This document shows positions 6,632-56,977 of a stretch of DNA of 64,000 nucleotides, piece after piece; within the stretch, counting starts at the first letter, position 1, and every line of letters starts with the position of its first letter. The DNA lies in NCBI GenBank assembly GCA_016196035.1, contig JACPYM010000022.1:62001-126000 (forward strand), in the 5' to 3' direction. The notes under the pieces are model-generated. The model saw only the letters and a list, made by a program, of their open reading frames with translations. It was not told the DNA's origin and made no database searches. The position numbers were made by a program, and so were the translations under genes. The DNA comes from Acidobacteriota bacterium. GTDB lineage: Bacteria; Acidobacteriota; Blastocatellia; RBC074.

Positions 6632-6844
6632 GTTCGTAGTACCGGCTGTGGCCGGAAACCTTTACGCTTTCAGCTCTCCGGCTAAAGCCCAATGAGGTTG
6701 AATTAGCAATGTCCGACAAGCTGCCAGCTTGTCGGCGACTCCGAATTTACACAATTGGAAGCCTCGACAAGCTGGCAGCTTGTCGGACATTGCGGCACGC
6801 GGCGCTTAATTCAACCTCATTAAGCTAGCGCCGGTACTACGAAC
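6632..6844. repeat. Nested 213-bp inverted repeat with CTGCCAG/CTGGCAG palindromes
   Basis: Three sets of paired arms are nested: 6632-6646 with 6830-6844 (15 bp perfect), 6691-6705 with 6807-6821 (15 bp perfect), and 6707-6723 with 6776-6792 (17 bp). The innermost arms each contain their own palindrome, CCGACAAGCTG-C-CAGCTTGTCGG on the left and a G-centred version on the right. The element ends five bases from the BNR gene stop. Palindromes with the same CTGSCAG core recur at 58966-59063. Confidence 0.75.
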
Positions 6845-11316: not shown

Positions 11317-11425
11317 CTAGTACTCCATCAAGCTGAAAATGAGGGATGTAGGGCGGGATTTAATCCCGCCCTACATCCCGGATGCGCTCTCAGCATCCAT
11401 CACTTACAGCTTGATGGAGTACTAG
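11317..11425. mobile_element. 109-bp MITE-like element, copy 1
   Basis: Bounded by perfect 18-bp terminal inverted repeats, CTAGTACTCCATCAAGCT and its complement. Inside is a near-complete palindrome: the 17-base GGGATGTAGGGCGGGAT and its reverse complement around TTA. It is base-for-base identical to 21655-21763. It has no coding capacity, so if mobile it must be moved by an enzyme encoded elsewhere. CTAG at both ends could be part of the element or a 4-bp target duplication. Confidence 0.8.
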
Positions 11426-21654: not shown

Positions 21655-21763
21655 CTAGTACTCCATCAAGCTGAAAATGAGGGATGTAGGGCGGGATTTA
21701 ATCCCGCCCTACATCCCGGATGCGCTCTCAGCATCCATCACTTACAGCTTGATGGAGTACTAG
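21655..21763. mobile_element. 109-bp MITE-like element, copy 2
   Basis: Identical to 11317-11425, with the same 18-bp perfect ends and inner palindrome. It sits between etfB and etfA, 17 bases upstream of the etfA start. If transcribed, it makes a long hairpin in the mRNA just before the etfA ribosome-binding site. Confidence 0.8.
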
Positions 21764-26171: not shown

Positions 26172-26277
26172 AGTGGTCAGTGGTCAGTGGTCAGTGGTCA
26201 GTAGCAGATTCTGGCTGCACTTGCAGGCTAAATTACCGACCACTGACCACTGACCACTGACCACTGACCACTGACTA
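26172..26277. repeat. Convergent 7-bp tandem repeats (TGGTCAG / CTGACCA)
   Basis: Four copies of TGGTCAG at 26174-26201, then about 40 bases, then five copies of CTGACCA (the last is CTGACTA) at 26243-26277. The two arrays are reverse complements and would pair into a hairpin. It fills the gap between two convergent genes and slightly overlaps the stop of the esterase gene. A similar array with TAGTCAG/CTGACTA units is at 56867-56977. Confidence 0.8.
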
Positions 26278-36034: not shown

Positions 36035-36064
36035 CTGGCAAGCCGCAGGGTGAAAGAGGTGGTC

Positions 36065-37831
36065 ATGGATAAAGGTGCAAGGACGCAAAGATCGCAAAAA
36101 GGCAAAAGTAGAAAGCTGACCGTGAACAGCAACCAATCGCTTCCAAAAGAATTTTGGGCCGACGACGAAAACGTGCTGCCGGTACTTGATGAATCTCTAG
36201 CGGCGCCGAGCCGTAACGGCGCGTCTTATCAAGTGTCTGGCGATGACGTACTGCAATTATTCGATGCGCCTTCTGTCAGACGAGTGGGGAATAAAGTCAG
36301 CGGGTTGCTTAACGCAGCGGCGACGGCGGAAACCTCGAAGGTTGCGCAATTGAACGAATATCAAAAATCACCAGCGGATGGCCCGCCCGCGCGCCAGGTC
36401 GCGGGCGAATACATTGCGCCCCCACCAACGCATCCTTCGCAACGCAGTCAAGGGCGCAAGGCGACGGCCAAGTTGGACTACTACAAGAAACTGGCTGAGT
36501 TGCAACAGATGAACCTGGAGTTTGGCCGCAGCATACGCGCGGCACGGAATGAAGCGCGCACCGAGGTCAATGGCAATAACGGCAATGGCAATGGTTACGC
36601 GAATCCCGAACTGGTCAATGGCAATACACACGCCCAGGCGTTTGAAACGCGCCAGCAAACGGGGCGGCGCGAGCTAACGCATCCGTTGACAACGTCGTTT
36701 CACGTCGCCACCAAACGCGGCGAAGCGCGCCCCGTCAGCGCGCAGCCGTCGGTAAAACAACCGACGCCGCATCCGTTGCCGGCCCATCAACAGCGCGTCA
36801 CGGCCAAGCTGGATTACAACCGGTTGCTGGAATTTCAGCGCCGCTACGAAGAGACGCAACCGCATGCGCCGACGATTGAAGACCGGTTGGCCAACAATCT
36901 GACGCAGCGCCAAGCCGCTGATTTTGCGCGCGAGACCGTGCGCCTGGCCGAGCCGCTCCGCCCGCGTTTGCCGGTGCGCGAAGTGGAGCCCCGGCAGGCC
37001 TTGCCCGAAATGCGTGATTGGCAAAACACGGCCAACCACGAGGCTGTCGTGCGGCGGCAACAGGCTGAACAGGATTTGCAACGTCACGCAGCGCCCGTGT
37101 TGACGCCGCAAACCGGCGGATTACGGCGCAGTACGCCGGAGCAACTCGCGGCGCAATTGCGCCAGCCGGTTGAGCGCGTGCGCGAAGTCTTGCTCGATCC
37201 GACACGGATTGACCCGCATCTGATCGCGCTCTCGGATTTCAATCCGCGCGCGGCCCGCTATTTCGATCAAGTGGCGGTTTCTTTGATTTCGGTTTCATAC
37301 AAACGCCTGTGCAAACGCGTGCTGCTGGCTTCGGCCCTGCCCGGTGAAGGGCGCACCTGCGTGGCGCTCAATTTGGCGGGCGCGCTAGCGCGAGCGCGGC
37401 AACGCGTCTTGGTGGTGGATTGCGATTTGGCGAATCCTTCGGTGCTGCGACTGTTGGGCATTGACGCGCCGCTGGGGTTGAGCGAGGCCGTGCATCGTGG
37501 CCTGGGGCCGAACAGCGCGGCGCTGCGGGTGCAACCGGCGGGGTTCAACATTTTGCCGACGCGCGAAAAAGTTCAGCATACAGCGGAGTTGCTGGCCGCG
37601 CCGCGCTTTCACGAAATGCTGCAAATGTGCGAGCCGGACTACGATTTTATTTTGTTCGATTCGTCGCCGCTGCTCGAGAGCGCCGATGCCAATCTGTTGG
37701 CGGGACTGACTGACGCCACCATGCTGGTGATCCGCCCAGGTATGACCACGACGCAACAGATGGCCAAGGCCGTGTCGCTCTTCAATGAAAAAGACATTTG
37801 CGGCGTGGTGCTCAACCGCGTGGCGAAATAA
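36065..37831 (+). CDS. BY-kinase-like (CpsD/CapB) ATPase with long N-terminal extension and Arg in Walker A
   Basis: 588 residues from ATG 36065 (preceded by GAGGTGG; an in-frame GTG at 36050 is possible). The C-terminal 200 residues are the MinD-like fold of bacterial tyrosine kinases: Walker A in SALPGEGRTCVALNLA, A' in VLVVDCDLANPSVLRLLGI, Walker B in YDFILFDSSPLLES. Arg430 (codon CGC, 37352-37354) replaces the usual Walker A Lys, and no Tyr-rich tail follows VVLNRVAK. The first 390 residues are Gln/Arg/Ala-rich and contain a repeated TAKLDY-x-x-LxExQ motif (around residues 136 and 250). It may be a regulatory ATPase or pseudokinase paired with the Wzz protein 30 bases upstream. Confidence 0.85.
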   Translation: MDKGARTQRSQKGKSRKLTVNSNQSLPKEFWADDENVLPVLDESLAAPSRNGASYQVSGDDVLQLFDAPSVRRVGNKVSGLLNAAATAETSKVAQLNEYQKSPADGPPARQVAGEYIAPPPTHPSQRSQGRKATAKLDYYKKLAELQQMNLEFGRSIRAARNEARTEVNGNNGNGNGYANPELVNGNTHAQAFETRQQTGRRELTHPLTTSFHVATKRGEARPVSAQPSVKQPTPHPLPAHQQRVTAKLDYNRLLEFQRRYEETQPHAPTIEDRLANNLTQRQAADFARETVRLAEPLRPRLPVREVEPRQALPEMRDWQNTANHEAVVRRQQAEQDLQRHAAPVLTPQTGGLRRSTPEQLAAQLRQPVERVREVLLDPTRIDPHLIALSDFNPRAARYFDQVAVSLISVSYKRLCKRVLLASALPGEGRTCVALNLAGALARARQRVLVVDCDLANPSVLRLLGIDAPLGLSEAVHRGLGPNSAALRVQPAGFNILPTREKVQHTAELLAAPRFHEMLQMCEPDYDFILFDSSPLLESADANLLAGLTDATMLVIRPGMTTTQQMAKAVSLFNEKDICGVVLNRVAK

Positions 37832-39307: not shown

Positions 39308-40567
39308 ATGAACAGCAATTTCTATAACAAGTTTGCGGCGCAAATCAGTTGCGCGGCGGTGCTGGCGGTGATGACGGCTGGTGCGCCCCTACAGGCGGCA
39401 CAGCGTTCGACCGCCGCCCAAAGTTTGAGTTCGGAGCCACAATCGCTATCTGTGGCTTCAGCGGCGCAGGTGCAGATGTCCTGGGGGGGAACGTCTGCAC
39501 CTGCCGTTTCGCTCACTGAAGTTTTGAGTTCGAGTTTGAAGCTGTGGGCAAACGCGCCCGCCGCTTCAGCGTTGCAGGCGCGGAGGTCCTGGGGGGGAGC
39601 GTCCGCGCCTGTCACAACGTCTTCAACGAGTTTGGGGTCACCGGTAACCGTGCCGGCGGCTTCAGCGTTGCAGGCGCGGGAGTCCTGGGGGGGAGCGCCC
39701 GCGCCTGCTACAACGTCTTTTATGAGTTTGGGCACGAGTTTGGAGCCGCAGGCAGTTGTTCTTGGGAATGAACCGGCGGCTTCAGCGTCGCAGGTGCGGA
39801 GGTCCTGGGGGGGAGCATCCGCACCTGCCACACGCAACCAACGCCCGGCTCGATCATCCGCCAATCCCGTTAGCACTGATGTGAATGACGACAAAACCGG
39901 GAAAAGCAATCAGACTAAAACCAAAGAGGCCGCGCCCACTGTGCAAGTGCCGGATGATCCGCAAGTTTTTGAATTGATGTATGAGAATTTCCGCCGTACC
40001 TACCGGCTCGGCCCCGCCGACGAGATTGCAGTGCGGGTGCGCCTGGAGCCGGATTATTCGATTGACCGGGCCAAGATTTCGCCCGATGGACGCGTCTTTC
40101 ATCCGCTGCTCGGCGATGTCGTCGTGGGCGGGCTGACCGTTGAACAATTGACCAGGAAACTCAAACAGGATTTGCTGCGCTATATCAAACAACCCGAAGT
40201 GAGCGTGCAATTGCTGGAAGCCAGGAGCGCCAAAATCGGCGTGCTCGGCGAAGTCGGCCACCCCGGCATTTTGCCGATGGTCGGCCCGATGACGGTGTTG
40301 GACGCCATCACGCAATCGGGCGGCTTTGCGCGTACCGGCAGCCGCAGCAATGTTTCGTTGATACGGCAAAGTCAAACCGGCAAATACCAAACCTTAAACG
40401 TGGACGTGAAAAAGCTGCTGGCCGGCAAGGCTGATGCGGAAGAAAACCTGCCGTTGCAACCGGGTGACACGGTCATCGTGCACGGCAATTTTTTGAAGAA
40501 ATTGGAATACGTGACGGCGCTGACAGGGTTTACTCAGTTCCTCGCCTTTGTCGCCCTGACGCGCTGA
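39308..40567 (+). CDS. Polysaccharide export protein (Wza-like, Poly_export/SLBB)
   Basis: 419 residues with a signal peptide (AAVLAVMTAGAPLQAAQ). The Poly_export domain is about residues 225-310 (YRLGPADEIAVRVRLEPDYS, ISPDGRVFHPLLGDV, GLTVEQLTRKLKQDL), and the SLBB domain follows (KIGVLGEVGHPGILPMVGPM, TVLDAITQSGGFARTGSRSN). A C-terminal segment LPLQPGDTVIVHGN ends before a hydrophobic tail. Between the signal peptide and the first domain, residues about 53-174 contain four copies of Q-x-R/Q-x-SWGG-x-x-AP, each encoded by a 39-bp palindrome. That insert is absent from ordinary Wza proteins. Outer-membrane export channel for the EPS. Confidence 0.9.
   Translation: MNSNFYNKFAAQISCAAVLAVMTAGAPLQAAQRSTAAQSLSSEPQSLSVASAAQVQMSWGGTSAPAVSLTEVLSSSLKLWANAPAASALQARRSWGGASAPVTTSSTSLGSPVTVPAASALQARESWGGAPAPATTSFMSLGTSLEPQAVVLGNEPAASASQVRRSWGGASAPATRNQRPARSSANPVSTDVNDDKTGKSNQTKTKEAAPTVQVPDDPQVFELMYENFRRTYRLGPADEIAVRVRLEPDYSIDRAKISPDGRVFHPLLGDVVVGGLTVEQLTRKLKQDLLRYIKQPEVSVQLLEARSAKIGVLGEVGHPGILPMVGPMTVLDAITQSGGFARTGSRSNVSLIRQSQTGKYQTLNVDVKKLLAGKADAEENLPLQPGDTVIVHGNFLKKLEYVTALTGFTQFLAFVALTR
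39466..39828. repeat. Four in-frame 39-bp palindromic units inside the export-protein gene
   Basis: Units at 39466-39504, 39574-39612, 39670-39708 and 39790-39828. Each has 11-bp arms (for example GCAGGTGCAGA and TCTGCACCTGC) around a 17-base loop with CCTGGGGGGG. Start-to-start distances of 108, 96 and 120 bases are all multiples of three, so every unit is read in the same frame. Arm positions 6, 9 and 11 differ between units and the opposite arm changes with them, so pairing is preserved. Confidence 0.85.
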
Positions 40568-40856: not shown

Positions 40857-41372
40857 ATGAAAAACTCCGAACTCCTCCTGAATACGGGGATGAGTGAGCG
40901 AGGTGCTTGGGAAGGTGTTGCAGAGGAACAGAACGCTCCACTAACAAATTCAACCGCTGTCACGGGTGTGGCAACAACCGGCTTCCGTCCGCTGCCGGTG
41001 GCGCCGCAAATGACGCTGTCAAATGCGCATGGCACACACGGGCCAGCTCCTAACGGTACCCTCTGGCGGGTGCCGCCCAAAAAGAACAATGAAATGACCC
41101 AACTGGCCGCGCTCGTCCGCGAGCGGCTGGCGCAGATGGGCGTGCGGCAATCGGAATTTTGCCGGTTGTATCGCTTTGATCAGGGCTTGCTCTCCAAGAT
41201 TCAAAACTCCGTCATTACCAATTTGAGTCTGGAAAGCGTCTTGCGGCTCTCGGTCGGCCTTGCGGTGCCGCCCCAAAAGATTCTGGCACTGATTGAACGC
41301 CCGGATTTACACGACCTGGTCTTGCAAGCCTACGGCAAGGAACTGACGCCAGACGACAACCGCGCAAATTGA
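40857..41372 (+). CDS. XRE-type helix-turn-helix protein inside the EPS cluster
   Basis: 171 residues from ATG 40857, preceded by GAGGCTAAGTTAACA. The last 90 residues are the DNA-binding part: LVRERLAQMGVRQSEFCRLY, then FDQGLLSKIQNSVITNLSLE and SVLRLSVGLAVPP, the five-helix XRE pattern. The first 75 residues are low-complexity and Thr/Ala/Pro-rich with no domain I recognise. An inner ATG at 41091 would give just the HTH domain. It may act as a local repressor of the cluster. Confidence 0.75.
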   Translation: MKNSELLLNTGMSERGAWEGVAEEQNAPLTNSTAVTGVATTGFRPLPVAPQMTLSNAHGTHGPAPNGTLWRVPPKKNNEMTQLAALVRERLAQMGVRQSEFCRLYRFDQGLLSKIQNSVITNLSLESVLRLSVGLAVPPQKILALIERPDLHDLVLQAYGKELTPDDNRAN

Positions 41373-50525: not shown

Positions 50526-50794
50526 ATCGGTTTTACTTCGGTATATGGGAAAAACCGCGCAGCGGGACAGTACCGCGCGCGTGAGCAAGCGGCCCGTTGG
50601 CAGTTCAGCCAAGGGGTAAGTTTGACGGGCCGCTTGCTCACGCGCGCGGTACTGTCACAGCGTCAACTGATTCCCATAACCGCAATTGCAAAGCCATCCC
50701 CCCGCTGTAACGTTTGCCGCGCTTTCCCCACTAGAAGCACAGGCACCAGACACAGGGCTTACTTTGCCCTACGCATTGGCAAGTCATCCCTTGA
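50526..50794. other. Intergenic region with the second 'GGGACAGTACCG' inverted repeat
   Basis: Gap of 269 bases between two glycosyltransferase genes. It contains the repeat 50562-50656 and no gene. Otherwise unremarkable. Confidence 0.6.
50562..50656. repeat. Inverted repeat GGGACAGTACCGCGCGCGTG..., copy 2
   Basis: Left arm GGGACAGTACCGCGCGCGTG continuing AGCAAGCGG (50564-50592); right arm CCGCTTGCTCACGCGCGCGG continuing TACTGTC (50630-50656). The loop differs completely from that of copy 1 at 11460-11560. The symmetric ends and different loops suggest selection on the stem. Confidence 0.75.
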
Positions 50795-56216: not shown

Positions 56217-56876
56217 ATGAGCACACTCGAATACCATCGGGCCGAACTGGCGATTGCCAAAGCGAAGGATGACCCGCGCCGTGTGATGCCCGCGCTGCCC
56301 GCCGCGTTCGGCAGCATCCTCGATCTCGGTTGCGGCGCGGGACAGACGCTCATCGCCTGTGAATTGCCGCCGGAAGTTTTCGCTTGCGGGGCTGATGTTG
56401 ATGAAGAGGCGCTGCGCTATGGCCGGCAACTGAGTGGTGAAATTCATTTCGTGCGCGCGGGCGGCGAAGCCTTGCCGTTCGCCGCGCAAACCTTTGATGT
56501 CGTGATCTCGCGCGTGGCGATCCCGTATATGCACATCCCGACGGCGCTGGACGAAATCGCGCGCGTCTTGAAACCGGGCGGGCACGTCTGGTTCACGCTG
56601 CACCCGCTGGCGCTGGTGCGGAAATGGCTGTGGAGCGCCTTGCGCCACGGCCATTTGAAAAGCGTCATTTACCAGAGCTACACGCTCGTGAACGGGCTGC
56701 TCCTGCATTGCTTTGGCAAACAGGTGCGCTTCCCGCTCAACCGCGCGCGCTGCGAATCGTTTCAGAGCGAACGCGGCATCACACGCGCCCTGCAAGCGGC
56801 CGGCTTAACGCGTGTCGAAACGGAATTGAACGAACAGTTTTTTGTCGTCAAAGCGGTAAGACAAAGTAGTCGGTAG
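56217..56876 (+). CDS. Class I SAM-dependent methyltransferase
   Basis: 219 residues from ATG 56217 (the frame opens at 56157, but the inverted repeat lies there). Motif I is SILDLGCGAGQTLIACEL; motif II CGADVDEEALRYG; the next motifs are FVRAGGEALPFAAQTFDVVI and IARVLKPGGHVWFTLHP. This is the UbiE/COQ5-like methyltransferase_11 pattern. Its stop codon lies inside the tandem array 56867-56977. It probably methylates a sugar or lipid intermediate of the EPS. Confidence 0.85.
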   Translation: MSTLEYHRAELAIAKAKDDPRRVMPALPAAFGSILDLGCGAGQTLIACELPPEVFACGADVDEEALRYGRQLSGEIHFVRAGGEALPFAAQTFDVVISRVAIPYMHIPTALDEIARVLKPGGHVWFTLHPLALVRKWLWSALRHGHLKSVIYQSYTLVNGLLLHCFGKQVRFPLNRARCESFQSERGITRALQAAGLTRVETELNEQFFVVKAVRQSSR

Positions 56877-56977
56877 TCAGTAGTCAGTAGTCAGCAAGAA
56901 ACGGCCCATTGCTACTGACTACTGACTACTGACTACTGACTACTGACTACTGACTACTGACTACTGACTACTGACTA
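56867..56977. repeat. Convergent 7-bp tandem repeats (TAGTCAG / CTACTGA)
   Basis: Four units (TAGTCGG then three TAGTCAG) at 56867-56894, then 17 bases, then nine perfect CTACTGA units at 56912-56974 and CTA. The arrays are complementary and would form a hairpin. TTGGTTTTTTATG follows, so the stem is followed by a T-run and then by the ATG of the second asparagine synthase at 56988. Confidence 0.85.

Follow-up and report, generated by a model that had tools for sequence, protein, structure and literature searches.

The OPX (Wza/EpsE-like) polysaccharide export gene described here carries four hairpin-forming units that multiplied through in-frame tandem duplication inside the gene, and two such units are also found in a congener. 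The hairpin is conserved at the nucleic-acid level, beyond what the encoded peptide needs. On the best reading of the data, this is a tandem repeat inside one gene and specific to the genus, and its copies do not come from a spreading mobile element.

The window, that is, the whole stretch of 64,000 nucleotides that was analysed, belongs to a genome of 9.59 Mb in 139 contigs (G000). The OPX gene lies at 39308-40567 on the plus strand and encodes a protein of 419 aa, with a Poly_export domain at residues 230-302 and SLBB from about residue 309; its best NCBIfam match, to the XrtA/PEP-CTERM exopolysaccharide export family, falls below the cut-off. The gene is part of a polysaccharide cluster, in which genes for a chain-length protein, a tyrosine kinase and a sugar transferase are followed by the OPX gene and then by a deacetylase gene and a flippase-like gene. 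The tyrosine-kinase-like protein (36050-37831) has about 415 residues of low-complexity-looking, Gln/Arg-rich sequence ahead of its ATPase domain (residues 418-589). A small gene (40857-41372) that lies downstream of OPX encodes a protein whose C-terminal half looks helix-turn-helix-like by eye, and it has a counterpart in the equivalent position in the congener. Within the OPX protein, the repeat array occupies the linker that joins the N-terminal segment, a predicted signal, to the Poly_export domain. A Pfam scan of the N-terminal region returned no repeat family, and structure prediction was poor throughout the protein (mean pLDDT 37).

The original prediction placed four 39-nt palindromes in one frame of a Wza-like gene, and they are present exactly there, in identical codon phase, each with a G7 run in its loop. 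On the plus strand, unit 1 is at 39466-39504 (Q-V-Q-M-SWGG-T-S-A-P; 14-bp stem), unit 2 at 39574-39612 (Q-A-R-R-SWGG-A-S-A-P; 11-pair stem including one G.T), unit 3 at 39670-39708 (Q-A-R-E-SWGG-A-P-A-P; 11-bp stem) and unit 4 at 39790-39828 (Q-V-R-R-SWGG-A-S-A-P; 11-bp stem). The peptide Q-x-R-x-SWGG-x-x-AP, proposed for every unit, holds for units 2-4, and the consensus has to be widened to Q-x-[RQ]-x-SWGG-x-x-AP because copy 1 reads Q-V-Q-M. Similarly, the description of the arms as 11 bp long and perfect or near-perfect fits the 11-pair stems, but copy 1 has a longer stem, of 14 bp with an 11-nt loop. Copy 2 is made up of 10 Watson-Crick pairs and one wobble because of the G.T pair at the foot of its stem. 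All 44 cells of the 11-pair stem in the four units are standard pairs, and the hairpin loop, CCTGGGGGGGA, is almost invariant. On the arms, positions 6, 9 and 11 show exactly the changes earlier described, as do the facing positions 34, 31 and 29; pairs 6:34, 9:31 and 11:29 change on both sides among the four units. The four 39-mers have folding energies of -29.7 to -30.9 kcal/mol, with z-scores of -3.7 to -7.3 relative to dinucleotide shuffles and -4.1 to -5.4 relative to synonymous recodings. In 100 shuffled versions of the window, the unit pattern did not occur even with up to 3 mismatches allowed.

The palindromes do not recur by themselves. Each repeat unit consists of a variable linker and the 39-nt hairpin, about 96-120 nt (32-40 codons) in all, and the spacings of 108, 96 and 120 nt are all in frame. 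Linkers 1-2 (39505-39573, plus strand, as are the others), 2-3 (39613-39669) and 3-4 (39709-39789) are mutually similar at scores that none of 400 shuffles reached, and linker 3-4 is also homologous to the linker of the congener (0/400 shuffles). The segment ahead of unit 1 (39397-39465) shows weak similarity to the later linkers, its score being reached by 1/400 to 12/400 shuffles. Over copies 2 and 3 there is a tandem period of 96 nt with 87% matches. Because the inter-unit linkers are homologous too, we conclude that whole units of 96-120 nt were duplicated in tandem.

The sole same-genus relative found in a scan of genome contigs was the MAG 'Acidobacteria bacterium isolate S-RSF-IL-17' (G001), and the repeat is known in these two congeneric genomes only, at the orthologous gene. 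The G001 orthologue contains one SWGG unit (GCAGGCGCAGACATCCTGGGGGGGAATGTCTGCGTCCGC) and, upstream of it, a diverged unit (GCGGGGCGCAAGCGGCTCGGGGGGGATCGCTTGCGTCTCCCGC) that encodes QAARGGSLASP and has lost the Trp of the peptide while keeping the stem and the G7 loop; the two units are 111 nt apart, measured from G7 to G7. SWGG is kept in five of the six units over the two species. At four-fold sites the two species are 47% identical (156/330), and TCCTGGGGGGGA is identical between them despite this divergence. Each of the six units has GGG.GGA as its loop Gly codons (codon usage gives P = 0.0097 per unit), whereas only 3 of the 12 rare (GGG/GGA) Gly codons found elsewhere in G000 are kept in G001. 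Orthologues from other genera within the family and class have short linkers without WGG, in agreement with the earlier statement that ordinary Wza has only a short linker at the repeat site.

To separate the stem from the peptide, we used a synonymous-recoding null in which the peptide was fixed and the codons were redrawn by the genome's own usage. Hairpins like those observed arose in 0, 1, 0 and 2 of 3000 recodings for the four units, and in G001 in 0 of 3000 for the good unit and 14 of 3000 for the diverged one. When the four G000 and two G001 units were aligned on G7, 95.5% of the cells of the 11-pair core paired, whereas 5000 recodings averaged 54% and none exceeded 71%. Covariation was assessed on the same six related units from two species, and two-sided compensatory change was found in 6 of the 11 pairs (10 such cells), with a score of 0.58 compared with 0.31 for shuffled alignments and 0 of 500 shuffles reaching it; slid registers scored 0.03-0.24. 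The changes at position 6 (Val/Ala) and position 9 (Gln/Arg) alter amino acids on the 5' arm, and their partners, which are third-codon positions on the 3' arm, follow silently, while at pair 11:29 the amino acids are altered on both sides. The claim that the stem rather than codon meaning is conserved is borne out, the covariation reaching the orthologue of the second species and the diverged unit without SWGG. Since this unit keeps stem and G7 in the absence of Trp and so many pairs show two-sided change, it is the nucleic-acid structure that is conserved.

Some features of the units differ between the strands. Wherever a standard pair in the core stems of the six units is not Watson-Crick, it reads G.U on the coding strand. 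The core has no A.C mismatch; one A.C is found outside it, at the foot of a G001 unit. The asymmetry amounts to about four or five independent events versus at most one and is not significant alone, and we regard the coding-strand G.U bias as suggestive only, because the independent events are so few (about four). Sense RNA folds more stably than antisense RNA in all six units, an energy gap that is partly a trivial effect of the G7 loop.

The best explanation, which we hold tentatively, is that of a genus-specific tandem repeat whose hairpin is kept as a structure of the coding-strand transcript, with the arms helped by template correction. The hairpin is probably kept as an mRNA hairpin. It would have been retained because it is active as a structure in the coding-strand transcript, where it could, for example, hold back ribosomes or RNA polymerase near the start of the gene or, alternatively, set how stable the mRNA is within the polysaccharide operon. 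During replication, correction templated by the hairpin would help the arms to stay matched, and the peptide Q-x-[RQ]-x-SWGG-x-x-AP would then be largely a tolerated by-product of the linker segment. A more specific proposal, that a tandemly amplified in-frame RNA hairpin with a conserved G7 loop regulates expression of the polysaccharide export gene, appears rather doubtful; no described family of this kind was found.

Selection on the RNA hairpin, aided by template switching, is favoured, if without great confidence, over homogenisation by template switching without function, which is a close rival although we consider it the less likely of the two. According to the latter explanation, the stem is a functionless mutational relic of tandem duplication and of template switching between the arms (quasipalindrome correction), in a linker that tolerates amino-acid changes. 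Template switching does homogenise the arms of inverted repeats in coding DNA, nonsynonymous changes included (PMC8604942; PMC8794818), and, by producing paired and nonsynonymous changes without selection, it mimics compensatory evolution (PMC8794818; PMC8604942). The compensatory covariation beyond coding constraint by which a functional mRNA hairpin is recognised is seen in the OPX units, but template switching can yield an equal pattern, and the outer 11 pairs are indeed nearly all perfect Watson-Crick. Template switching accounts for the arms; on its own, however, it does not keep the loop, and the G7 run and the rare Gly codons are present in all six units. It also predicts that a loop should now and then be inverted, which is the case in none of the six units, and it does not lead one to expect that the non-Watson-Crick standard pairs lean to coding-strand G.U.

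A different role for the G7 runs, that of a slippage switch, is improbable. Runs in the hairpin loops would vary in length, so that the export gene switches OFF and ON by phase variation, the presence of several runs raising the rate. G7 is found in every one of the six units, a slip by a single base in either species brings the frame to a stop ahead of the Poly_export domain, and runs of G7 or longer are rare, with 16 in an 864-kb sample of the genome. Four of these 16 are in the OPX gene, and they coincide with the four most stable hairpins among them. Yet no length variants are seen (one genome per species), each of the six runs having exactly 7 G and leaving the gene in the ON frame; slippage needs no hairpin stem, and multiple OFF sites in series would be costly.

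The original prediction had likened the units to the palindromic elements of Rickettsia, which would mean that a mobile element colonised the gene by separate in-frame insertions. This is very unlikely, even though all units are in one frame and absent from the orthologues of other genera, and other hairpins are abundant and dispersed in the genome. The linkers were duplicated along with the palindromes, and separate insertions of a palindrome are disfavoured because insertion would leave the linkers uncopied. What is more, the copies are confined to one gene in both genomes. The core 12-mer TCCTGGGGGGGA has exactly four copies in the 9.6-Mb G000 genome, always in the OPX gene, and a single one in G001, in the orthologue; a 25-base pattern with 3 mismatches detected only the four known units in their own genome. 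Covariance models revealed no further convincing copy in the genome itself and the family, and no convincing dispersed copies among 162 class genomes and 396 phylum genomes; the best outside matches, at 33-35 bits, were in unrelated contexts, with E-values as expected by chance over so many genomes. Because filtering was stricter in these large scans and the number of candidates scored in each genome was limited, weak, diverged copies could be missed. A loose 16-mer pattern was too noisy in the relatives and was left out of the results. An Rfam scan gave nothing above the gathering score, the loop-plus-arms pattern had no match in viral contigs, and the repeat region used as a query had none in plasmids. 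With only chance-level extra matches from the searches of the genome, family, class and phylum sample, a dispersed mobile palindrome was rejected. Mobile-element insertion is therefore largely refuted as the cause of copy multiplication, a conclusion that applies to the multiplication and not to the origin of the first copy.

Least probable of all is selection on Q-x-[RQ]-x-SWGG-x-x-AP as a functional motif with the palindrome as a codon coincidence: despite the recurrence of SWGG in two species, such stems almost never arise by synonymous recoding, where one arm changes an amino acid the opposite arm follows silently, and the diverged unit loses Trp but keeps the stem. The recoding and covariation results refute the peptide as sole explanation, although it may contribute. 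Peptide selection should have shown itself in the same peptides being encoded by unrelated, non-palindromic DNA in orthologues; the outcome was the opposite, though the repeat is carried by one congener only. A CRISPR-like array was ruled out by the location of the repeats, in frame inside a conserved gene, and by spacers that are homologous rather than unique.

Other hairpins and repeats are present in the genome. In a census of the 864-kb sample, 85% of which is predicted coding DNA, there were 146 perfect hairpins with arms of at least 11, 27 of them in predicted genes, and by the census listing no gene besides the OPX gene had more than one. A 37-nt perfect hairpin, GGGATGTAGGGCGGGATT(T/A)AATCCCGCCCTACATCCC, is dispersed, with copies in the window at 11343-11379 and 21681-21717 and others near 565 in L051, 3293 in L054 (inside a predicted 365-codon frame) and 6912 in L061; as a possible mobile palindromic family, it makes a stronger case than the OPX repeat. 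Arrays of 7-bp units that form inverted pairs of tandem repeats are found in the window at 26172-26275 and 56865-56977 (AGTGGTC facing GACCACT; AGTAGTC facing CTACTGA) and elsewhere in the genome, for example at about 730-804 in L069 and near 17134 in L073. Long perfect hairpins with arms of 28-39 bp (50566-50656 and 6706-6793 in the window; also in L053, L061, L068, L072 and L079) are numerous, belong to several recurring families and are mostly outside predicted genes.

In kind, the OPX repeat is nearest to PARCELs and Rickettsia palindromic elements (RPE), but it belongs to neither group. In PARCELs, palindromic DNA encodes tandem protein repeats (PMC2996958); these have a 25-residue amphipathic motif (DUF285/TIGR02167), a wide, sporadic distribution and links to mobile elements (PMC2996958). 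The OPX repeat resembles them as a variable-number tandem protein repeat from dyad-symmetric DNA in an exported or membrane protein. Its units, however, have 32-40 residues, are Ala/Ser/Pro-rich with SWGG and are limited to one gene of one genus; DUF285/TIGR02167 was unmatched in the OPX protein in Pfam and NCBIfam scans, and the repeat lacks a wide distribution or a match to plasmids or viral contigs. Many PARCEL coding regions also have opposite-strand frames (PMC2996958); a 195-codon open frame on the minus strand (39322-39909) is antisense to the whole OPX repeat region and is probably a by-product of composition. RPEs are dispersed and inserted in frame within genes (PMC3733652; PMC2996958), and the OPX palindromes are similarly in frame and in one codon phase, with stems of 11-14 bp, in a segment missing from ordinary homologues. 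RPEs span many genes, whereas the OPX copies are all in one and share homologous flanking linkers, not the palindrome alone. REP elements (repetitive extragenic palindromes) are short, high-copy and dispersed (PMC3733652); the likeness is that of short palindromes of 20-40 bp, but the OPX element is coding and has four copies in a single gene. Mitochondrial genes of Nematomorpha have long, perfect coding inverted repeats of up to 284 bp (PMC6649704), also retained within functional coding sequence, but these fall in regions of animal mitochondrial proteins that are conserved, and no tandem array is described for them. We file the OPX repeat as a variant among palindromic coding tandem repeats, outside the PARCEL, RPE, REP and Nematomorpha families.

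Bacterial coding repeats whose stems show clear compensatory change, the amino acids yielding to the pairing, are unusual. Selection on RNA structure and replication-templated correction of the arms are easily confounded, and this small array sets one against the other in a case that allows comparison of copies, orthologue and codons alike. The array shows, too, that plain tandem duplication is enough for a palindromic coding repeat to expand, with no mobile palindrome involved.
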